Shown: positions 13,922 to 38,308 of the stretch, piece by piece
Numbering within the stretch: the stretch's first letter is position 1
How the letters are laid out: each line of letters starts with the position of its first letter
Source of the DNA: a virus
Virus record (IMG/VR): IMGVR_UViG_3300046780_000286
Coordinates: 1 to 52,047 of that record
Direction: 5' to 3' (one strand)
DNA length: 52,047 nucleotides
Notes under the pieces: generated by a model
What the model was told of the DNA's origin: nothing
The model's database searches: none
The model's input: only the letters and a program-made list of their open reading frames with translations
Position numbers and translations under genes: made by a program

Positions 13922-14097
13922 GATACGTTGTATCCACGTTCGATTAAGAATCGTTTTTGCTCTTGGAATTCTTCCTCACTCAAACGAGGTTTTGTCTGAT
14001 CGAAAATTAGGCAAGAACCAATCGCACCAGTGACTGGATAATACAGAAGCTCTGCATATTCAGGATTCGGAATCCATTCTTTCTTCTCATCACTCAT
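13918..14097 (-). CDS. Hypothetical 59-aa protein
   Basis: A short gene joined by ATGA overlaps both to the polymerase palm gene upstream (14094) and to the 65-aa gene downstream. The protein starts MSDEKKEWIPNPEYAEL and ends in a charged helix (EEEFQEQKRFLIERG). The tight coupling on both sides supports a real gene. Function is unknown. Confidence 0.6.
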   Translation of the reverse strand: MSDEKKEWIPNPEYAELLYYPVTGAIGSCLIFDQTKPRLSEEEFQEQKRFLIERGYNVS

Positions 14098-15092
14098 AGT
14101 TGTATTTCTTTCATCCCAATCGGGTTATGTTCTTCATCATAGTGGCCCCAGTTCTTACCCACAGCCACCGATGATTTCATCCTAAAGCTTTTACCGTCTC
14201 GTCCAACTAAGACGAAAGACTTGATTGCATCCGAAGCAACCTTAGCAGCCTCGTTAATCTCCACGTCGGGAACCTCTAGCAAGATTGAATCATGTTTTTG
14301 GTTCAAGAGATTCCAGCGCTTGTTCTCACGTTGGATGTAATCTTCCACGATGAAGATTGCCTCTGTCGAAAGACAACCCACAGTTGACTGAGGTATCCAA
14401 GAGATAATCTCGCGTTCGTATGAAGGCGTAAAGATTCTTTCAAAGCGCCTAGGATAGCCGAACATATTCACAAGTTCGCGATACTTCTTTGCCATGAATA
14501 TGACCTCCGTTTGCCACTGTTTAATCTCAGGAAAGAGCTTATGGAACATCTCAAGGAACACCTTAGCCTCGGCTGCAGTCATAATCAAAGCACCCTTGGA
14601 TTGCTTCAAGGCGTTGTCCATAAAAGTTTTCCAACCACCGCCATAAGAAGACATATGGACTACCATCTTGCCGACTTTGTAGGGCTTGCCGGAGTTCGCT
14701 ATCCTAGACTTGAGCGTTTTCCAATGAGGTAGTTTAACGAGTTCGCTTGGGGTTAGCTCCGCGAGATAGACTTCTTTAGGAAGAATGCCCGCGAACCATT
14801 GCGGATTCGTTGCTGCGAAAAGATGCAGCGCGATTAAGGTATGTGGTTTCTCACCTACGTTCAACAGGTCTAGATAACGACCGGCCGGGGCTAGATTCGC
14901 GACGACTGCTGACTCGGCGCCGGATTGGTCTGGCTGGACGAAGAAACATCCTTGACGAGCTTGAAGCAGGCAGAGAATTTCTTCGTCAGGATTCTGGAGA
15001 TTTAGTCCTTGGTCGAATAGCTGGCTAGACGACAAGCGGTACGATTTTGTGCCCGCTACTTTGAACGTGCAGATCGCGCGAGGGAGGCTCAT
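14094..15092 (-). CDS. Family A DNA polymerase, palm and fingers half
   Basis: A 332-aa protein holding the polymerase core. The RLSSSQLFDQGLNLQNP stretch (19-35) matches the RLSSxxPNLQN start of the Pol I palm. Motif A is QPDQSGAES with Asp55, Ser57 and Glu60. Motif B has Lys142 and seven residues later Tyr150-Gly151. Motif C is KHDSI with His267-Asp268, Ser replacing the usual Glu. The usual Arg after motif A is absent. The exonuclease and thumb are encoded separately at 15294..16679, with a zinc-ribbon gene between. All three core motifs are present, so the half should be active when assembled with its partner. Confidence 0.88.
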   Translation of the reverse strand: MSLPRAICTFKVAGTKSYRLSSSQLFDQGLNLQNPDEEILCLLQARQGCFFVQPDQSGAESAVVANLAPAGRYLDLLNVGEKPHTLIALHLFAATNPQWFAGILPKEVYLAELTPSELVKLPHWKTLKSRIANSGKPYKVGKMVVHMSSYGGGWKTFMDNALKQSKGALIMTAAEAKVFLEMFHKLFPEIKQWQTEVIFMAKKYRELVNMFGYPRRFERIFTPSYEREIISWIPQSTVGCLSTEAIFIVEDYIQRENKRWNLLNQKHDSILLEVPDVEINEAAKVASDAIKSFVLVGRDGKSFRMKSSVAVGKNWGHYDEEHNPIGMKEIQL

Positions 15093-15099
15093 GGGTTAC

Positions 15100-15288
15100 T
15101 TATGAAACTTTTTCCCAACCACAATTTCCACAATGGTTTATTACTCGATCGCTCATGGAAATTCTTGCTATTCTATCTCCACACTCCGGGCACCGTTCGC
15201 TCGGTTTAACATAGCCAACTTGCCAAGGATACTTAGCAGGCTGTTCTTCTGGTTGGTCACCAGCACAATGTATGTCTCGGTCGGTCAT
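15100..15288 (-). CDS. Zinc-ribbon protein between the polymerase halves
   Basis: A 62-aa protein with two CxxC knuckles (CPECGD and CGNCGW) about 20 residues apart, a classic zinc ribbon. It has 5-7 nt gaps to the polymerase exonuclease gene upstream and the palm gene downstream. Its place suggests it was inserted into, or helps connect, the split polymerase. The partner is unknown. Confidence 0.7.
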   Translation of the reverse strand: MTDRDIHCAGDQPEEQPAKYPWQVGYVKPSERCPECGDRIARISMSDRVINHCGNCGWEKVS

Positions 15289-15293
15289 AGCTG

Positions 15294-16679
15294 TTACCTT
15301 TCTTCAATTCTGTAATACGGCTTAAACTTAAGCAAGTCACGACATTTAAGAACCTCTCTCAACGCAAGCAAAACCCTAATGCTAACGACACGAGGATTCT
15401 TAACAGCGAGAGAATACATAGCATCGGCAGCGGTTGAGTCTTTCTCGGCGGCGGTTTGATAAGTGGAAGTCAGGCCGAGTTGCTTGAAGAAATACTCACC
15501 TAGCTGTTGCGGCGAGGAGACTAGGACGGAACTCCCGGCTAGCATCTGGAACACACGAGTAAGTCCTCTAATCTTTGTCTCTAGCTGTCTTAGTTTAGCC
15601 GCGCGCAAGTCTTCGCGAAACTCGAACCCCGTAAAGCCAGCCCTTAGGTAAATCTCTAGTGACCTATTCGCGGAATCAACTGAAGCTTTTAGTCCCGGTC
15701 TAGCTTCTATATAGCTTCGTTGAGCTAGATACACAGCTCTAGTCGCGAGTACATCAAGTGCGTTATATCTGAGAAGCTGTTGATATTGGTGGTGATTCCT
15801 AGGATACCATGTTCCTGCAGCATCCTTGTGATAGGGAACATTGATCCAGAAAGAGATAACGTGACCAAGAGACTTTTCACTCTCCGGAAAAACGCGATGG
15901 TGCTGGATCATAGTATCTCTTAGATTTGGTCCCCAAGGAATCCCATGGAACATCGCGAGAAATCCTAGGTCAAAAGAGATGTTATGGCCGACAATCACGC
16001 AGCGTTTAAAAGCTCTAGTCAGAGCGGCAAAGAAACGCGGTGGTTGCTTAAGACTACCGTCGTAATTATAGACCGGAATCGAATAAACTGGTCCGGTTTC
16101 TCTAGAGATGGCTAGACATTGTACGACACTAGCCGAGGGCCAAGTTTCGATATCGATGAACAATAACTCACCCGCTTTGAAGCTATCTAGATACCCGGCT
16201 AGATCGGCGTTCCAGATGATATCTTCTTTGTAACCCGAGCGACGTTCATTAAGCAAGAGTTTTCTTATATCGCTCATTGCCCAAAATCGGTAGTTCGCAC
16301 GCGAGGTAATAGATAGGTCTTTGCTGTTGTCAGAGTCTGATCCAGAACCTTCGTCATCTTCATTATCCCACTCGCCATTGAAGGCTTCGGCGCAGTCGAT
16401 AGGGTTGAATGTGGCGACAATGTTGGAAGCCCGCGCGGTGTGGACGTAGCCTCTGAGAGTGGTGATATCTTGGGGTTTGCCACGCCACCTACTAGCTGCT
16501 GGAAAGCCGCAGAGAATCACTGGCCTACCAATACTAGCTGGGTGATAATCTAAATCATCAGTCACGTCGAAATCGCCGCCTATTGCCTCTGCGAGAAAGT
16601 CCGCTGATGGACCGCAGAGCAAGGTGTTCGAGGCTCGGGCGAATCTATCTCTAGACGAAAGAACTACAAGCGGTTTCAT
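15294..16679 (-). CDS. Family A DNA polymerase, 3'-5' exonuclease and thumb half
   Basis: A 461-aa protein. Exo I is FIDIET (Asp176, Glu178), Exo II is GHNISFDLGF (Asp237), and Exo III is YNALD (Tyr305, Asp309). All catalytic residues are present. The C-terminal part (SSPQQLGEYFFKQLGL to LREVLKCRDLLKFKPYY) is the thumb, ending where the palm would begin. The N-terminal ~140 residues form an extra domain with LRGYVH and VATFNPIDCAE, loosely like the uracil-glycosylase-type domain found at the N-terminus of some phage polymerases; this is tentative. An acidic linker (about 104-122) follows it. It overlaps the upstream small gene by ATGA. Confidence 0.87.
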   Translation of the reverse strand: MKPLVVLSSRDRFARASNTLLCGPSADFLAEAIGGDFDVTDDLDYHPASIGRPVILCGFPAASRWRGKPQDITTLRGYVHTARASNIVATFNPIDCAEAFNGEWDNEDDEGSGSDSDNSKDLSITSRANYRFWAMSDIRKLLLNERRSGYKEDIIWNADLAGYLDSFKAGELLFIDIETWPSASVVQCLAISRETGPVYSIPVYNYDGSLKQPPRFFAALTRAFKRCVIVGHNISFDLGFLAMFHGIPWGPNLRDTMIQHHRVFPESEKSLGHVISFWINVPYHKDAAGTWYPRNHHQYQQLLRYNALDVLATRAVYLAQRSYIEARPGLKASVDSANRSLEIYLRAGFTGFEFREDLRAAKLRQLETKIRGLTRVFQMLAGSSVLVSSPQQLGEYFFKQLGLTSTYQTAAEKDSTAADAMYSLAVKNPRVVSIRVLLALREVLKCRDLLKFKPYYRIEER

Positions 16680-21393: not shown

Positions 21394-22305
21394 TTATAAG
21401 TCTCGAAGACATTCTTCTAATGACATGCCTAGTATGTAAAATCGCACTAGATACGATTCAATTCCCCTAACATTTCCTTCCTCATAACAAGCTCTCGGAA
21501 TTATCTCGTCGCCGGCTTCGACGCGTTTATCTAGGTCTTTATCAAAGACATCCTTGATCCCTAGGTTATCAGCGATCCTGCTTGCGATTGGAATGACATC
21601 GAGAGGTCTATCGCGTAGAGGAGTTGTGCGTAGAACGATCTTGTTGATTCGATGGTACAAGTCACTCCTGAACTCACCCTTCGCGATCATGTCCTTAAGG
21701 TTCTTGTTCGTGGCGAAGACGAACTTGCACTCGACCGTATACTCGGAACTGCCACCTACGGCACGAGCCTGACGAGTTTGAAGAACCCTTAGCAACTTCG
21801 TTTGTTGATTAGGCGGTAGATCACCAACCTCGTCGAAGAAAAGCGTACCAGTTCCAGCCGTTCTGAAGAGACCCTCGGTGGAGTGGTCTGCGCCAGTGAA
21901 CGCGCCTTTCGTGTGACCGAAAAGTAGAGACTCGAATAGACTATCAACAATCCCTGAACAATTCACTGCATGAAAAGAATCCTTCGTGACGATTGTAGTC
22001 CGTCCGATGATTTTCTGCTCATTGTTATTGCCATGGAAGATTCTAGCTAGGAGTTCTTTGCCTGTGCCAGTTTCGCCAAGAATTAATACGGGAAAGTCGA
22101 ACTCGCTAGCATCACGAGCGATTTCTACTACGCGCAACATGGCTGGATCGTAGGTAACGAATTCCGCGATGGCAAGTTTTTGCGGGGTCGGTGCGATCGT
22201 GATGCCTTGACGACGCGCGGCTCCGGCTAGGATGCTATTGACATCGGCGACGGTCTTAGGTGCGACAGGTGTAGTTAAAGTGTCGGCGAATTTGGTTAGT
22301 TTCAT
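21394..22305 (-). CDS. Sigma-54 activator (bEBP) AAA+ protein, stand-alone domain
   Basis: A 303-aa protein with the full NtrC-type AAA+ core: Walker A GETGTGKE (77-84); the sigma-54-contacting loop GAFTGA (134-139); Walker B TLFFDEVGDLP (154-164); sensor I ATN (198-200); arginine fingers in FRSDLYHRI (212, 219); and sensor II GNVRGIE (278-284). Known proteins with this loop remodel the sigma-54 RNA polymerase closed complex with ATP. The N-terminal ~45 residues are too short for a receiver or GAF domain, and there is no C-terminal Fis/HTH domain, so it should be constitutive and act without its own DNA site. It overlaps the helicase gene by ATGA. Its target is host sigma-54, as no sigma factor is encoded. 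Confidence 0.9.
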   Translation of the reverse strand: MKLTKFADTLTTPVAPKTVADVNSILAGAARRQGITIAPTPQKLAIAEFVTYDPAMLRVVEIARDASEFDFPVLILGETGTGKELLARIFHGNNNEQKIIGRTTIVTKDSFHAVNCSGIVDSLFESLLFGHTKGAFTGADHSTEGLFRTAGTGTLFFDEVGDLPPNQQTKLLRVLQTRQARAVGGSSEYTVECKFVFATNKNLKDMIAKGEFRSDLYHRINKIVLRTTPLRDRPLDVIPIASRIADNLGIKDVFDKDLDKRVEAGDEIIPRACYEEGNVRGIESYLVRFYILGMSLEECLRDL

Positions 22306-29035: not shown

Positions 29036-29193
29036 TGAGCGCGACAGGATTTGAACCTGCACGAGAAGCTTCATCATGCATTGCTTCTCTGTTTCCCGCT
29101 TCGTGGCTGTGGCATGCTGAAGTATCCACGGGTCTGCGTCTGCACTTATCAGGTATAAGCTGATTTAGTCTTTCGACATTCCGCCACGCGCTC
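29036..29193 (-). tRNA. Oversized tRNA-like gene, anticodon possibly UAU
   Basis: A 7-bp acceptor GAGCGCG/CGCGCTC, discriminator A, and T arm GCAGG-TTCAAAT-CCTGT are clear. A 5-bp/7-nt anticodon arm (ATCAG-CTTATAC-CTGAT, 29148-29164) has T33 and A37 and would read TAT (Ile, AUA codon). The total is 158 nt because the region between anticodon and T arms is about 86 nt, with its own hairpins (GAGAAGC/GCTTCTC and others). The D arm contains a GTC-GAAA-GAC hairpin. No CCA is encoded. It could be a functional exotic tRNA, an intron-bearing one, or a tRNA-mimic RNA. Confidence 0.55.
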
Positions 29194-29347
29194 AAAATTG
29201 GTTGAGCCTTTTCGCGTCATGCTCAGGACGGCCTATACTGTGTTACGCCTGTACGTCTGCCTAGCACACAGCAGGGTTTTATGACGTTTCCCCATATCAG
29301 CGCGGCGCACTGGAGCCTTTTAGATGTCACGGATTGCTCAGGACAAG

Positions 29348-29414
29348 TTGTCCGCTTGGACTTGAACCAAGACTACGATCTTAAGGGAACGCGTGCTGAT
29401 TACACTACAGGACA
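29348..29414 (-). tRNA. Degenerate tRNA-like gene
   Basis: A 7-bp acceptor TGTCCTG/CGGACA-type with one G-T pair, D arm GTG-TAATCAG-CAC, and T arm CTTGG-TTCAAGT-CCAAG are all recognisable. The anticodon arm has a mismatch in the stem and only a 6-nt loop (CCTTAA), and the whole RNA is about 67 nt. It may be decayed or edited, or a mimic. No CCA is encoded. The neighbouring 29420-29530 stretch folds into hairpins (CGGTTTT/AAAACCG, CTTTAC/GTAAAG) with a TTCAAG segment and may be a further remnant. Confidence 0.5.
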
Positions 29415-29581
29415 AAATCATAGAGCTTTTAAGGACAAGCTCTTGAACCTAGCCCTTTACAGTTTGTTCTCTGTCGGTTTTACGAAAACCGCTAACGCCT
29501 TGTGTAGCGCATGGGTAAAGTAACAGCTGGCCGAAGCGACTATTGCCGTCGTCTTGCGCAAGGGTTTCTGCAAGTTGAATG

Positions 29582-29663
29582 GGAACTAGGAAGGATTTGA
29601 ACCTCCGTCAGAACTTAGCCGACCTATGCGCAATAGGGATTTAGACCACTCGTCCACTAGCTC
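29582..29663 (-). tRNA. tRNA-like gene of type II shape
   Basis: Acceptor GAGCTAG/CTAGTTC (one G-T pair), D loop with GG, a variable arm GTCGG/CTGAC and T arm GGAGG-TTCAAAT-CCTTC. The anticodon arm can be drawn as CCTAT-TGCGC-ATAGG or with a 7-nt loop TTGCGCA (anticodon GCG but C at position 37 and one mismatch). The identity is therefore unclear. No CCA is encoded. Confidence 0.55.
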
Positions 29664-31245: not shown

Positions 31246-31308
31246 CTTGCTCCGCTAACATACTAGCCACGGAGACATAAGCATAGAACAGGCCAAGACT
31301 TTAGGAGA

Positions 31309-31575
31309 CTAGAACCTTCGTAGATTGTCAACCAATCCAGCGTTTCTATAAGCCCAGCCAGCAGCTTCAAAGGGCTTAACTCCATCTGCTCGCATTGCTT
31401 TGATAGCGAACTTATCCCTTTTCGCAGAAGACTTACTTCTAGCGACCGTTCCGGCGTAGTCGGTCGCGACGTAGCCTTTGCGCCGAACGTAATCTTCCGA
31501 GAAAGCATACGTCGGAGGCTTGTAGTTGTCTAAAAACTCACGTTGCTCCTTAGTTAATGGCTCTATCGTTTTCAT
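31309..31575 (-). CDS. Hypothetical 88-aa basic protein
   Basis: A basic protein (MKTIEPLTKEQREFLDNYKP, then ARSKSSAKRDKFAIKAM) that may bind nucleic acid. Its ATG is 6 nt after the U-tract of the terminator at 31582-31632. No family recognised. Confidence 0.6.
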   Translation of the reverse strand: MKTIEPLTKEQREFLDNYKPPTYAFSEDYVRRKGYVATDYAGTVARSKSSAKRDKFAIKAMRADGVKPFEAAGWAYRNAGLVDNLRRF

Positions 31576-31581
31576 GATAAC

Positions 31582-31632
31582 AAAAAAGCGCAGACTTTAG
31601 TGCATAGTGCTTCTATGCTCTAAACTCTGCGC
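31582..31632 (-). terminator. Strong terminator ending the large non-coding RNA
   Basis: A long stepped stem: GCGCAGA/TCTGCGC (31588-31594 with 31626-31632), then TTTAG/CTAAA, then GCATAG/CTATGC, followed on the minus strand by TTTTTTG. It closes the non-coding region upstream and lies 6 nt before the start codon at 31575. Confidence 0.9.
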
Positions 31633-32017
31633 TGGCGAGAGACTTTCGTTATTCAAGGGCGAAAAGGTTAAGCAATTACTTCCTAACCTTCTGTTGCTTA
31701 GTAGCAAAAGGAATAGCACAGCATGCTGGGCTATTTGAACTTTCTACTTTACACAACGGCGAACCCTTGTTGCCAAGTCTCTATTTATCGTTTCTCATGC
31801 CTTGCGTCGCTTAGGTATTGCGACTCGTTGCTCTTTTGTCGGGTCTTTCCCGCCACACAGTTTCGCTGCATGACCCGTTGAAGTTCCAACGGCCAACGTT
31901 CCCATTTGGCTTTGGCCATACTAGCTTTCTAGTCGGCACCTATGGGCCTTTCGCATCTTGTAAAGTTTAGGCAACCAACGGAACTAGTCCGCTCCGTTGG
32001 AAGTTTGCTTTGTTTAA
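31633..32017 (-). ncRNA. Large structured non-coding region A
   Basis: No gene fits this stretch on either strand. It is dense in perfect hairpins: AGGTTA/TAACCT with an enclosing TAAGCAA/TTGCTTA, GTCGC/GCGAC, CGGG-TCTTT-CCCG, ACTAG-CTTT-CTAGT, GCCAA/TTGGC and CCAACGGA/TCCGTTGG. It ends at a strong minus-strand terminator. It lies near tRNA-like genes, as GOLLD and ROOL RNAs do in other phages. The strand is inferred from the terminator. Confidence 0.6.
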
Positions 32018-32476
32018 CTAGGCGTTAACTGTCTCGCCCGTTGTCTCCGCTGACTTGTTTTCGGGCTTCGTCGCTTCTACGAGTCCGGCCGCAACTCGAC
32101 ACCATTCCGCTAGGTTTGCCGGTACCGATGGCCAAACTCCCCATGCCTCATTAAACACCAGCGAGTCCCTAGTGAACTGATACACGTTCAGTGGTCGTTC
32201 CGTGCCTTGTTTCACGGCGATGCTACCAAGCTCGAACTTGCGAGTATCGGCACCCTTAACGGTGCCGTCTTTGAGCTTGAGCTTGGCATATTTGCCGGAC
32301 TCATTCTTCGCCTTCGTTTTCGCGGGGTCAACGACTTCAAACTCGTATTGCCCCAATGCGCTGTGAACGGTGTTCAGTAGGCGTTTCTCGGCCGCTTCCG
32401 TTGCCTTGTCGTCATTCTTCACTACGCAAAGCGCGGCGATGGATGGGACAAGGTTGAAGTGCAATTTATGTGACAT
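32018..32476 (-). CDS. Hypothetical 152-aa protein between two structured RNAs
   Basis: It starts MSHKLHFNLVPSIAALCVV and has a charged middle (DPAKTKAKNESGKYAKLKLK) and a Thr/Glu-rich tail. A small OB- or beta-type DNA-binding fold is possible but not shown. It is first in the minus-strand arm and is flanked on both sides by large structured non-coding DNA. Confidence 0.6.
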   Translation of the reverse strand: MSHKLHFNLVPSIAALCVVKNDDKATEAAEKRLLNTVHSALGQYEFEVVDPAKTKAKNESGKYAKLKLKDGTVKGADTRKFELGSIAVKQGTERPLNVYQFTRDSLVFNEAWGVWPSVPANLAEWCRVAAGLVEATKPENKSAETTGETVNA

Positions 32477-32479
32477 AAC

Positions 32480-32930
32480 TTTTCAGGCTCTGCAATCCCT
32501 TTGGCTAGTGCTATCTCACGTCTATTTGACGCGCCATAGTCTATGCTCAACTGGTTGCCTGAACTTTACAATCTGCTCCGACAGTCCGATGCCTTGTTGC
32601 CAAGTCTGTTACTCGGCCCAAGGTCAAATTCCTGCCACGCTTTGGAAATAGGCTCTACTGCCCGGCCGTCGTGCTTGCGCCCGCTAGAATCATCATAGTC
32701 TAGCATTCCTCCGCACGCTGACACTATTTCACTCGCGTTTGGTTCCCGGTGGTTACGGGTTCCCTGCGTGTCAAAACTCACGCCAGCATTTAAGCGCGCT
32801 GGCTAATGACTCGCGCAGGGACTATCCCGCGCCGTCTTTTCGCTTCAAGACTTCTAACAGCACTCGCTGCTAAGGTCTGACAAAGAGGCTAAACTTGTTA
32901 GCCTCCGTTGTCAAATCTTAGTTCCTACAA
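32480..32930 (-). ncRNA. Large structured non-coding region B
   Basis: There is no credible gene in 450 nt. Hairpins include GAGGCTAA/TTAGCCTC, GCCAGC/GCTGGC, GCGC-(GGGA/TCCC)-GCGC, CCCG-GTGGTTA-CGGG inside TGACAC/GTGTCA, GCTAGA/TCTAGC, GTCTT/AAGAC and CGTC/GACG. It shares the 16-mer CCTTGTTGCCAAGTCT with region A (at 31768 and 32595). It may be a second ornate RNA, or region A and B may be one RNA split by the 152-aa gene. Confidence 0.55.
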
Positions 32931-33008
32931 AGCTAGCCTCACAACTACAAAGCAAAAACCGGCGATTACGAAACAAGCTCCAATAATTCCTATCTGCTCT
33001 ATTTTTTG

Positions 33009-33046
33009 CACGTCACGAAGCTAGAGTCTTTTTCTCGACGTGTCAA
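33009..33046 (-). promoter_or_regulatory. Putative early minus-strand promoter with inverted repeat
   Basis: On the minus strand TTGACA (33046-33041) is followed after 17 nt by TAGCTT. The element is bracketed by CACGTC/GACGTG arms (33009-33014 and 33037-33042), an operator-like arrangement. The -35 is perfect and the -10 is weak. It lies just upstream of region B. Confidence 0.4.
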
Positions 33047-33229
33047 AATCTTTTCGCGTTTATTTCACTCGCCCAGCTCTAACTTGTTCTCTAGCAATAT
33101 CTTGCCTAGGGCTAAAAATCTCACTTTAACTCGCGAATAAATTTGGCACGGTTCTAATTTCATTCCTTTGTTCACTCTACTTGCTTTCTTGGCTCATTTT
33201 CGTGCATTTTGCAAGATTTCTCACAAAAG

Positions 33230-33480
33230 AGAGTGTTTTTGCTTCATAAATGGCTGAAAGTGAAGGTTTTAGCTCTTTTTTCATTAAAAAAGTTCTAAAG
33301 GTTATAGGTTTTATATATATATATATATGTATATATATTTTAATATACTAGAATTCTTCTACTAATTATTTTATTATTTTATTTTCGCCTCTTTTGACAT
33401 TTCAAACTCCTTCTCAACAGAATCTTTTTAATCTTCTCACAAGTAAACTTACAAACGTGAATAAGTTCCATATAGGAACA
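33230..33480. other. AT-rich divergent region, replication origin candidate
   Basis: It separates the two transcription arms. It has a cruciform-forming repeat (TTTAG..CTTTTTT-CATT-AAAAAAG..CTAAA, 33268-33299), a nearly pure TA tract (33310-33352), and the palindrome GTTCC-ATATA-GGAAC (33465-33479). Such AT tracts act as DNA-unwinding elements. The rest of 33047-33751 has no gene I can support, only AT-rich sequence and likely promoters for both arms. Confidence 0.5.
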
Positions 33481-33751
33481 CAAGTCGTTACCTAGCAGAG
33501 ACTTAGCAAAGTCCTAACAAAGTAACATAACCATCTTGAGTAGCATACTCGTTGTGTTTTCATAAGTGAACAAGTCTGTCTCAATCCTAACTAACCCGCG
33601 CAAGATACTCATGATTGGGCTACACCAACCCCAGAAAGGCGATGCGGAATACTACTAATCGTTCTAAAAAATTTACATCAATTTTAGAAACCTAGGGACA
33701 TTAACAGCTAGAACCTATTGGCATAGATCATGCAAAGAAAACGTAGCAAAG

Positions 33752-34381
33752 ATGAAGATCATCAAAAGCACCGGTTCGGAAGAAGCCGTTACAATAGAAG
33801 ACTTGCGAGCATTCATGCCGGCGCCCAGTACGAATTTCAAATCGCGAGAGATTGAACAAGAAACCGAAAAGCCCTTAGTTGAAACAGCAGTCGAAGTAAC
33901 TGAACCCACCGGCGCCCTCCCCGCGCCCGTCGCCGTTTCAACAAGAAAACATCCCAACGTCGAAGCAATCGTCAACGCCTACGAAGGTGAAGGGATTTCG
34001 GTTGATAACATCGCACAGATGTTCGATTGGGAAGCTTCTCTCGTAAGGATCATTCTCGCACAAAAGTCCAAGCTATACCGAATCCAAGAGAATGTCAACA
34101 CTGATGGATCAAAATTCGAGTTAGTATCTGATGAAGACTTTTTCGAGATTAAAGATGCGTTTCTCACGATGGTTAAAAGCGAGAACGTTCTCAAACCCGC
34201 AGATCGAGCTAAGAATATGCGATGGCTTCTTGACGAGAAGAAGGGTCGCAATGATGCAATCAAAACCGCGCCCGTTACCAATAACATCGTTTCTCTTAAC
34301 CAGTTCATTAAGTCGAACCGTGAGAAGTACGAAAAACGGATCGAGCGATTGAGAGGCTCGAAAGAGGCCATTGAAGCATGA
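33752..34381 (+). CDS. terS: Terminase small subunit
   Basis: A 209-aa protein overlapping the large terminase by ATGA. Residues 70-115 (HPNVEAIVNAYEGEGISVDN and following) form a helix-turn-helix, as expected for packaging-site recognition. The C-terminal third is basic and helical (FIKSNREKYEKRIERLRGSK), suited to large-subunit contact. Assignment is by HTH, size and position; sequence identity to known subunits is not evident. Confidence 0.7.
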   Translation: MKIIKSTGSEEAVTIEDLRAFMPAPSTNFKSREIEQETEKPLVETAVEVTEPTGALPAPVAVSTRKHPNVEAIVNAYEGEGISVDNIAQMFDWEASLVRIILAQKSKLYRIQENVNTDGSKFELVSDEDFFEIKDAFLTMVKSENVLKPADRAKNMRWLLDEKKGRNDAIKTAPVTNNIVSLNQFIKSNREKYEKRIERLRGSKEAIEA

Positions 34382-36159
34382 GCTTCGACGCGAATGACTC
34401 TGAAGGTTTTGCAACGCATGACGAGTTTCTCTCGATCATGCGCAAAAAGATTGACGGGAACAATCATGTCGTGGAAGAACCTCCACCGGCGCGAGCAACC
34501 CGAAAAGCCAGCGAGAACATGGAGGTCCCCTCAAAAGGTCTCCATGATTTCTCCGGGAACAAAGAATATGAACCACTTGAATTCGCATCTGCTTACGAGT
34601 TCATGCTAACGTATCACGACGAGTTCGAGTTGTACGATTGGCAGATCGAGGAACTAGAAAGACTCTCCGGTTGGAACGAAGAAACTGGAACATACATCCA
34701 ACCTACGTCTGTCGAGCCAATGCAGTACTCTCTCGCAGCAGCAAACGGCTCTGGTAAGGATAACGTGCTCATAGCAGGATTTATCTTGTGGTTCTTAGCC
34801 ACTAAGACACACGGCCAAGTTCGTGTCACTTCTAACACCGCGGCACAAATCGACGCGCAGACATTCGCGCACGCGAAATACTATGCGCAGAAAATTAACC
34901 GCTCTGGAGTCTATGGCGAAGAGCTATTCCAAATTAAACACCTCCATATCGAATGTGAACGTACTGGGGCGAAATGCCTTATGTTCGTCACGAATGAAGC
35001 TGGACGCGCGGAAGGCTTTCACGCCAAGTTCGGAAACCCCTTTGCAGTTATCATCAACGAAGCTAAATCTATCGACGACGCCTTGTTTGGTGGATTTGTT
35101 CGTTACACAGGCTGGACGCATTGGATAGAAATCTCTTCAACAGGATACCGACGTGGACACTTCTACCGTAAATTTACTTCGCCAGAAGCTCTCTCATATC
35201 CGAAACCACTCCAATATGGCATTCTGTGGAATCGAAAAATCAAGGCTAGTGATTGCCCGCATATCATGTCGGGCAAAGCGCGAATCGCCGAGATCATGCG
35301 TGATTTCGGATCGGACAGCATCGAATACCATTCCGCAATCGCAAGCGAGTTCTCAGACGGGTCGTCAAATGACATTCTGATTAAGGGCAAGTACTGTGAA
35401 TATGCTGATCCAAAAGAAGACACATACGGATTACCGAAAGTCGCTGGTGTCGATTTATCTCTCGGCGGAGATGAAACCGTAGTGAGCATTTGGCAAGGAA
35501 ACTACAGGGTTGCACAAGTTTGTCTCAAGGAGCGCTACGAGCCCACGTTACACTTTCGTCTCATAGAGATTTTCAAAGAGCATGAACTCTTGCCGGAGAA
35601 CATCATCGCAGATGCAGGCGGTCTAGGAAAGCCAATCATCCACAGACTTGCTGAGGCAGGCTGGCCCGTTGACATGTTCAACTTCGGAGGTTCCGCTAGG
35701 AACAAATCGTACTACACGAACATCGGCGCCGAGCTATGGATGATAGTGAAAAGGCTAGTCGAGGAGAAGCTAATAGTCCTGCCAAGAATGGACTACAAAT
35801 TGCTAGAGCAATTAACCTCGCGTAGGTACGACACGTTGTCAGGGAAGATCAAACTTGAGTCGAAAGAAGATGTTCGTTCAAGAGGTGAGGATTCTCCCGA
35901 TCGTGCCGACGCGATGATAATGGCGTGGAGTCGTTATGATATTGATGCTTTTCGAGCTCTGGCGAAACCCGGATCGGTTAAAGGTGCTAAGCCGTTGCCG
36001 AATACGCGTACGGCGCCGGAGCCAGTCTCGTTCAATTTCCAAGCGATACAAGCTGAGATGGAACGGCGGCGAGAATCCGGCGCGGGAATTACTTTTGGTG
36101 GTCAACGTAGTAAACAACGTAGAGGAGGATTTATATGGGCTATGACAAATTGTCGATGA
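34378..36159 (+). CDS. terL: Terminase large subunit
   Basis: A 593-aa packaging motor. The Walker A loop is AANGSGKDN (121-129), with Asp in place of Ser/Thr. A VIINEAKSIDD strand takes the Walker B place (Asn-Glu rather than Asp-Glu). The nuclease domain begins GVDLSLGGDE and continues with IIADAGGLGKP and DRADAMIMAW near the end, the usual three acidic clusters. It converts procapsids to full heads together with the portal encoded downstream. Confidence 0.88.
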   Translation: MSFDANDSEGFATHDEFLSIMRKKIDGNNHVVEEPPPARATRKASENMEVPSKGLHDFSGNKEYEPLEFASAYEFMLTYHDEFELYDWQIEELERLSGWNEETGTYIQPTSVEPMQYSLAAANGSGKDNVLIAGFILWFLATKTHGQVRVTSNTAAQIDAQTFAHAKYYAQKINRSGVYGEELFQIKHLHIECERTGAKCLMFVTNEAGRAEGFHAKFGNPFAVIINEAKSIDDALFGGFVRYTGWTHWIEISSTGYRRGHFYRKFTSPEALSYPKPLQYGILWNRKIKASDCPHIMSGKARIAEIMRDFGSDSIEYHSAIASEFSDGSSNDILIKGKYCEYADPKEDTYGLPKVAGVDLSLGGDETVVSIWQGNYRVAQVCLKERYEPTLHFRLIEIFKEHELLPENIIADAGGLGKPIIHRLAEAGWPVDMFNFGGSARNKSYYTNIGAELWMIVKRLVEEKLIVLPRMDYKLLEQLTSRRYDTLSGKIKLESKEDVRSRGEDSPDRADAMIMAWSRYDIDAFRALAKPGSVKGAKPLPNTRTAPEPVSFNFQAIQAEMERRRESGAGITFGGQRSKQRRGGFIWAMTNCR

Positions 36160-36427: not shown

Positions 36428-38308
36428 ATGAACGAACTCAACACCAACAGCGCCGGTGTCGCTGCAGTTCAAGCGCCGGCGATAATCTCTTTGTCGAACT
36501 TCTCGCGGTTTAAGCAGTACTTCACAACTCTCTACGAAGGATTCAATGAAAGTGTCATTAACGACCAGTGGAATGCTAGGAACATCCGGCGGCTGGAGGT
36601 CTCAGTCGATTCGCTCCAGCAGTCGGGCAAGCTCGAAGCAGACGAAACCTACATCCCCGTCCGAATCATTGACCGAAACGTCAAAGCGCGAATGCCTAGT
36701 CGACTTGCCTATCTCAAGTCAGCCAATCGCCTCGCCATCTTTGAAGCGCAATTCTCGCTCGAAGCCATCGATATCCAGCCCAACACCTCACGACTCGAAT
36801 CCGAATTCTGGCGAGTCCTCACCTACGACAACTGGGAAACATCCTACATCGCTTCCTCAGACGGAGCCGAGTTTGTCGGATGGAACTGGCTCGAAGTCCT
36901 CTACACGCCGACGGAAGGTTACGAAGGCCACTGCGGAATCTTCCAAGTCGGACGCGAAAACCTGATCTTCGACACCGGAGTAGATGACATTCAGAAATCT
37001 AAAATCGTCGTAAAGCGAATTCCGATCACACTTGTCACGCTTGCAGAATACGCAAAAGTCTTCGCGTTCAAGCCAGCATTCGTAGCGAAATTGATGGAGC
37101 AAGTCAATCTTGTCGATACCAATTCCGGGCCTGGGAGCGCGAGCTATGATAACGCAGATGACTCATGCATCTACATCTTTCGAGCATTTTGGAAAGAAGG
37201 CGGAGTTGTTAAAACCGCTTTCTACGCCGACGACCTAGAAGACTGGCTCAACGATCCGCACGATTTTTACAATGGCGTTGACAAGGAAGTTGAACAAGCT
37301 CCAGTAGTTCAGCCGGGTTCGCTAGTTCCAGAAGCCACGAAAGTCTGGCAAAAGGAACCTTCGCGAGAATATCCTTTCGTACCGGTTCTTAGGTCAATCA
37401 CAGAAGACTTGCGCATAGCACAGACACAGGGTTCCGTTTCGGCTGATTACGGAATCCAAGAAGCAGCTTGTTCCGTGTTCTCAGCACTGGTCAACATGGG
37501 CAATAGACACGCGCAGACCATGTGGTCGCCGGCTGGTGACAATTATGACAAGACCGGCGCTCCAAAGCAGCTTTCGATGAAGCTTGAACGCGGGCAAATT
37601 TGGGATCGTCCAATGGCTGCATTCTCCACGCCGCCACCAGACTCCACGCTTCCGAACATCATTCAAGCTCTTGAACAGTGCAACGCGCAGAATAACCAAC
37701 AGATCGCATGGGCAGTTAATAACCGTAAGGATTCTAGAAAAACCGCAACCGAAGTCGGCGAAGCGGCAAGGACTCAGTCCGAGATCAACTCGTCCGAGAC
37801 GTTCATGTTTAGCATGTGTCTTAGGCAAGCATGGTCTATGGCTTGGCCAATCATCCAGTCGCAAGCGTTGCAAGGATTGATTGTGTTTTGTCCCATGCCT
37901 GACGGTACGAACGACGTAGAGTTGATTCGCAAGTCCTACAAGCTCAAAGCCGCCGGCGATACTGATTACGTTGAGAAGCAAAAGACAATCGTGAACATGC
38001 AGCAAGACATGCCTACCATGTTGCCGACGCCGGCGGGGCCAATGTTCCTAACGCATTATCTTAGACTCAGATATCCTGCTGAAGCGGATACCTACATCAA
38101 AGCACTCGATGCACAACGTGCGCAAGAAGAACAACAAAAGAACGCTTTGTTGAAAACCGCCGTTACTGACCCGCACACAGGTGAACTCGAACCGGAGTTC
38201 CAGCCATATCAGGCACAAATCGCACAGATGCTAGCACCGAAGCAAGCTGGCGCTAAGACTAGTCAGCAACAACCCCAACAATCTCCCCCGCAGCAACAAG
38301 CAGCATAA
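36428..38308 (+). CDS. Portal protein
   Basis: A 626-aa protein between terminase and scaffold, the size of podoviral portals. It has a helical N-terminal stem (FSRFKQYFTTLYEGFNESVI), a beta-rich wing with LEVLYTPTEGYEGHCGIFQV, and a long helical C-terminus with a Gln/Pro-rich tail (QQQPQQSPPQQQ). Assignment rests on position, length and fold pattern. Confidence 0.75.
   Translation: MNELNTNSAGVAAVQAPAIISLSNFSRFKQYFTTLYEGFNESVINDQWNARNIRRLEVSVDSLQQSGKLEADETYIPVRIIDRNVKARMPSRLAYLKSANRLAIFEAQFSLEAIDIQPNTSRLESEFWRVLTYDNWETSYIASSDGAEFVGWNWLEVLYTPTEGYEGHCGIFQVGRENLIFDTGVDDIQKSKIVVKRIPITLVTLAEYAKVFAFKPAFVAKLMEQVNLVDTNSGPGSASYDNADDSCIYIFRAFWKEGGVVKTAFYADDLEDWLNDPHDFYNGVDKEVEQAPVVQPGSLVPEATKVWQKEPSREYPFVPVLRSITEDLRIAQTQGSVSADYGIQEAACSVFSALVNMGNRHAQTMWSPAGDNYDKTGAPKQLSMKLERGQIWDRPMAAFSTPPPDSTLPNIIQALEQCNAQNNQQIAWAVNNRKDSRKTATEVGEAARTQSEINSSETFMFSMCLRQAWSMAWPIIQSQALQGLIVFCPMPDGTNDVELIRKSYKLKAAGDTDYVEKQKTIVNMQQDMPTMLPTPAGPMFLTHYLRLRYPAEADTYIKALDAQRAQEEQQKNALLKTAVTDPHTGELEPEFQPYQAQIAQMLAPKQAGAKTSQQQPQQSPPQQQAA

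Follow-up and report, generated by a model that had tools for sequence, protein, structure and literature searches.

A putative two-domain phage RNA with a small gene in its helix-closed loop in a virus genome from IMG/VR

In an IMG/VR virus record of 52,047 bases (the window, analysed over its full length), the stretch 31583-32930 on the minus strand is best modelled as one two-domain phage RNA of ~1.35 kb that carries a gene in a loop closed by a long helix, a reading to which we give an even chance of being right. The putative RNA would run from near 32930 to a terminator at 31587-31633 and would be transcribed as one unit. A long-range helix, here called PX, would join a 5' domain of about 360 nt to a 3' domain of about 370 nt, and the 152-codon ORF with the hairpins flanking it would be placed in the loop that PX closes. 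The sequence upstream of the ORF, region B (32477-32930, ~454 nt, with a putative 5' end), corresponds to the 5' domain, and region A (31583-32017, ~435 nt including the terminator) contains the 3' domain (31634-32017). The initial annotation had proposed two structured RNAs around the gene, or else a split RNA into which a gene was inserted; the split RNA is favoured here because the two regions pair with each other over the ORF and have a 16-nt strand in common. Of the first proposal the structured halves stand, and in view of the helix and the shared strand they are better described as one two-domain RNA than as two molecules. Neither the shared strand nor the pairing that spans the ORF had been noted in that annotation.

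The locus opens the leftward arm of the genome (below 33 kb), which holds genes for a primase, DNA polymerase A, a Sak4-like protein, an exonuclease and a helicase. The rightward genes begin at 33752 with an ORF of 209 aa, and next to it comes a terminase-like ORF (34378-36159) that matches annotated phage large terminases. The divergent arms are separated by a long stretch of non-coding DNA that is AT-rich at 33000-33750, and a (TA)n stretch within it (33300-33350) may be an origin or control region. Upstream the locus is bordered by AT-rich DNA without long ORFs and downstream by an 88-aa ORF, and the genes of this genome mostly abut their neighbours, as judged by inspection of the ORF table. 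A tRNA-Arg(gcg) at 29581-29663 (-) and a tRNA-like element of 158 nt at 29036-29193 (-) lie 2-3 kb away, in keeping with the nearby tRNA-like genes first reported. The element has an intact acceptor stem and T-arm, whereas its D-loop and variable regions carry large insertions, and it scored 27.1 bits against the Rfam tRNA model, slightly below the cut-off of 29. A possible extra tRNA-like element at 29345-29420 (-), which has complementary ends and a T-arm (CTTGGTTCAAGTCCAAG), was picked out by eye with no call from any tool. Elsewhere in the genome, DNA polymerase A (14094-16679, minus strand) is encoded by two ORFs separated by a 201-nt gap, and its PHROG matches run on from one ORF to the other, for which an intron, a frameshift or a true split are possible. 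Besides, the protein encoded at 21394-22305 (-) carries an AAA+ domain of the sigma-54 activator type (Pfam E 2e-54).

On the minus strand both halves fold more stably than their shuffled counterparts. Region B reached an MFE of -169.7 (z -5.4) and region A without its terminator -117.2 (z -3.6), with 0 of 100 shuffles equally low in either case. When B and A were joined without the ORF the z-score was -6.5 (0 of 40 shuffles equally low), or -7.2 with 20 shuffles, against a mean of -0.71 (sd 1.32, lowest -3.9; 20 shuffles) for 40 random loci of matching shape taken from the window. The initial descriptions of hairpin-dense regions and of a large structured RNA agree with these statistics. In steps of 150 bases the minus strand gave z-scores of -3.4 to -4.3 over 31501-31950, merely -1.3 to -2.7 in B and near 0 across most of the ORF, which as a whole is mildly structured (z -2.1 on the minus and -2.0 on the plus strand). 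The hairpins predicted in B lie at 32921-32870, 32821-32761 (with 32803-32782 inside it), 32623-32592 and 32533-32517 (p 0.79-1.00), and another (31978-32000, p 0.84-0.98) follows the ORF's stop codon and precedes the 3' arm of PX, its outer 3 bp competing with the end of PX in one fold. These predictions rest on one sequence, and in the joined fold p exceeded 0.9 for 138 of the 288 MFE pairs, with several junction helices uncertain (p 0.06-0.55).

The two halves are connected by PX, in which the 5' arm (32552-32571, minus strand) pairs with the 3' arm (31977-31958) on the far side of the ORF through 19 Watson-Crick pairs out of 20. Ungapped pairing between the halves scored 18 at best against a shuffle maximum of 15, and none of 2000 shuffles equalled it. 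A less strict score that allowed gaps and favoured G-U pairs was equalled or exceeded in 2 of 200 shuffles, which leaves the ungapped stretch as the basis for calling PX significant. The helix appears in the MFE structure with the ORF, without it and with extra 5' sequence; its two parts had mean p of 0.99 and 0.95 in the 1,478-nt RNA and of 0.99 and 0.89 when the ORF was left out, and forbidding it cost 33 kcal/mol. The halves also contain an exact direct repeat of 16 nt, AGACTTGGCAACAAGG, one copy in each, and their best direct match of 16 compares with a shuffle maximum of 14 (0 of 2000 shuffles). Across 508 segment pairs of the same shape from the window, inverted or direct matches scoring at least 15 occurred only in pairs overlapping this locus. 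In B the first copy (32592-32607, minus strand) makes up the 3' strand of hairpin 32623-32592. The second, in A (31765-31780, minus strand), is paired to 31660-31639 in the MFE structure of the full RNA, as part of the helix that closes 31781-31639. In both copies the middle nucleotides (GCAA) are predicted to lie in or beside an internal loop, and the strand alone could form a small CTTG-GCAA-CAAG hairpin.

The ORF at 32018-32476 (minus strand, 152 aa, pI 8.5) is the sole convincing one within 31583-32930, and it scored +0.08 bits per codon under the codon usage of the phage itself. Coding potential in A and B was considered through small ORFs (31785-31919, 31795-31905, 31811-31939, 32566-32781 and others) and rejected, all of them scoring negative (-0.13 to -0.49), with a test that is weak for short ORFs in that some small genes that look plausible in other parts of the window scored negative too. 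The gene-free character of the flanks noted at the outset holds on this evidence. The start of the ORF has no Shine-Dalgarno motif, as is the case for most genes of this phage (SD-like 4-mers or longer at 10 of 44 starts genome-wide), and the scarcity of such motifs suggests a host group with SD-poor genes. At the other end of the locus an intrinsic terminator (31581-31633, minus strand) consists of the hairpin 31633-31613/31607-31587 with 19 of 21 positions paired (p 0.98-1.00) followed by six T, in line with the strong terminator initially described, and it closes A, with the start codon of the next gene only a few bases further on. It was absent from the list of the simple terminator scan, probably by reason of its interrupted stem.

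These features would also suit an ordinary mRNA whose 5' and 3' untranslated regions are heavily structured. Here PX would tie the ends together and stabilise the message or control translation of the 152-aa protein, and the protein would be the point of the locus. The codon usage of the ORF, its start without a Shine-Dalgarno motif and the terminator that follows it in the same direction all fit such a message; however, the flanks (about 454 and 435 nt) total about twice the length of the gene in a genome where most genes abut, and they are far more structured than the gene itself. We hold the mRNA to be unlikely, albeit a serious contender. A pair of independent RNAs, one (B) preceding the gene as a leader or as an RNA of its own and the other (A) running to the terminator, appears improbable to us. 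Each half is significant alone and has confident local hairpins, and the promoter scan, which found consensus-level sites only (33405-33376 upstream and 32331-32303 inside the ORF), offers in the latter a promoter-like site (9/12) from which A could start; against this, PX and the shared 16-nt strand connect the halves, and the terminator scan found no strong terminator between B and A. A weak terminator-like site was seen inside B (32803-32782).

The structure might instead reflect chance or a role at the DNA level, such as replication-origin hairpins beside the AT-rich region of divergence at 33000-33750. A perfect hairpin can form on either strand, the joined flanks are significant on the plus strand as well (z -5.5), and the locus adjoins the (TA)n stretch between the divergent gene arms. 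The plus strand is nevertheless the weaker one in both halves (z -3.8 for B and -1.5 for A), the terminator is oriented for the minus strand and pairing between the halves spans about 575-615 nt, all of which make this account highly improbable.

Homologues were sought widely, in searches that may leave out very near records. The nucleotide sequence of the locus found none among phages and plasmids, and the 152-aa protein found none among viral contigs, phages, plasmids, genome contigs and the PDB and had no match in Pfam or PHROGs; its AlphaFold2 model from the single sequence had a mean pLDDT of 37 and was uninformative. Results were likewise negative for the 626-aa protein (36428-38308) against phages and viral contigs, for the AAA+ protein against viral contigs and for the neighbouring 88-aa protein against phages. 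The large terminase (TerL) had no close relatives among viral contigs and genomes: an alignment of distant TerLs yielded 80 loci with a best identity of 34% among the IMG/VR loci kept, and identity to Akkermansia phages was 27-31%. By its terminase, the phage is thus an orphan among these sequences. In all, 96 loci were examined, and none showed convincing RNA similarity or a 152-aa gene. A 31% match to the 88-aa gene in one of them (L077) looked like chance, with no comparable long structured non-coding region visible there.

Pattern searches of viral contigs gave a similar picture. A hairpin-plus-TGTAAAG pattern occurred in 12 stretches whose similarity was confined to short matches, and the pattern of the PX arms in 27 stretches that were alike only over short stretches. 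The 15-mer GACTTGGCAACAAGG was found in 74 stretches, 71 of which place it in a stop-free frame of at least 120 codons, and the other three (L105, L126 and L168) matched no Rfam family. The stretch in L126 (4025-4680), an unrelated viral contig, has few ORFs around the 15-mer and is probably a chance occurrence. Single-sequence covariance models R1 and R2, run on 88 sources, were significant only in the window itself, the next best being its other strand (E 0.07) and L075 (E 2.1), and model R1 found nothing in 38 records.

Comparison with Rfam by cmscan gave nothing at gathering scores for the window and two chance-level matches only (up to E 5) for 31300-33750. The Infernal check proposed with the initial annotation was run as single-family searches of the record with the GOLLD (RF02032), ROOL (RF03087) and HEARO (RF02033) models, none of which matched at E up to 10; the control genomes were silent over the cut-off for all three, so these searches give no measure of sensitivity to divergent members. 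The suggestion of a divergent GOLLD or ROOL member thus found no backing from the models. The group I intron model (RF00028) had no match at E up to 10 either, and 2 of the 14 control genomes gave matches above its cut-off. An intron-like or HEARO-like mobile element, its ORF placed in a peripheral loop, would have the layout of intron-encoded genes, yet with no group I or HEARO match, no family at gathering score, no nuclease recognised in an ORF that lacks a Pfam or PHROG match, and no exon halves seen in the 88-aa ORF downstream or the AT-rich DNA upstream, it is the least probable explanation.

The data are compatible with a new RNA class, one that matches no Rfam family and is known from one copy, and an earlier report of an ornate phage RNA bearing a gene was not found in the open-licence literature. 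GOLLD and ROOL make RNA-only cages of unknown function, the GOLLD cage being an RNA-only 14-mer. By analogy, the two-domain RNA would be mainly a structured, stable non-coding scaffold, as these are thought to be; the gene would take the place of their variable linker, and the small protein would be translated from the PX loop or would act on the RNA. It is on this likeness that we infer stability, multimer or cage formation and a link between protein and RNA. A bolder version, to which we assign a low probability, is a further and unrelated class of cage-forming phage RNA whose interior linker carries a translatable gene, such that the scaffold holds its own message and perhaps shields it or times its translation. 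If the two-domain reading is true, an RNA that matches neither GOLLD nor ROOL and is closed around a gene would suggest that such RNAs arose more than once, and the gene in the linker would provide a testable link to what they hold or regulate. Should the locus be merely an mRNA with giant untranslated regions, it would be an unusual layout of gene control all the same.

Among known systems, group I introns resemble this locus in that an ORF in a helix-closed loop is typical of intron-encoded genes, and they differ in that the locus has no model match and no exons were seen. HEARO is likewise a structured RNA with an associated ORF, whereas here there is no model match and the ORF has no protein family match, hence no HNH endonuclease was recognised. 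ROOL, whose function is unknown, is a large RNA that phages encode near tRNA genes, while this locus is longer, is split by a gene and does not match its model. GOLLD is a large phage RNA of two domains near tRNA genes, and the present candidate also lies in a virus record (IMG/VR) with a tRNA-Arg and a tRNA-like element at 29036-29663. Published work describes both GOLLD and ROOL near tRNA genes, and GOLLD with separate 5' and 3' domains and a variable linker inside the cage, at times with tRNAs (PMC12286853). The analogy of a gene in the linker speaks to what the RNA may work like and not to membership: the linker of GOLLD is variable and sometimes holds tRNAs, whereas here its place would be taken by an ORF that encodes a protein and is enclosed by a long helix.
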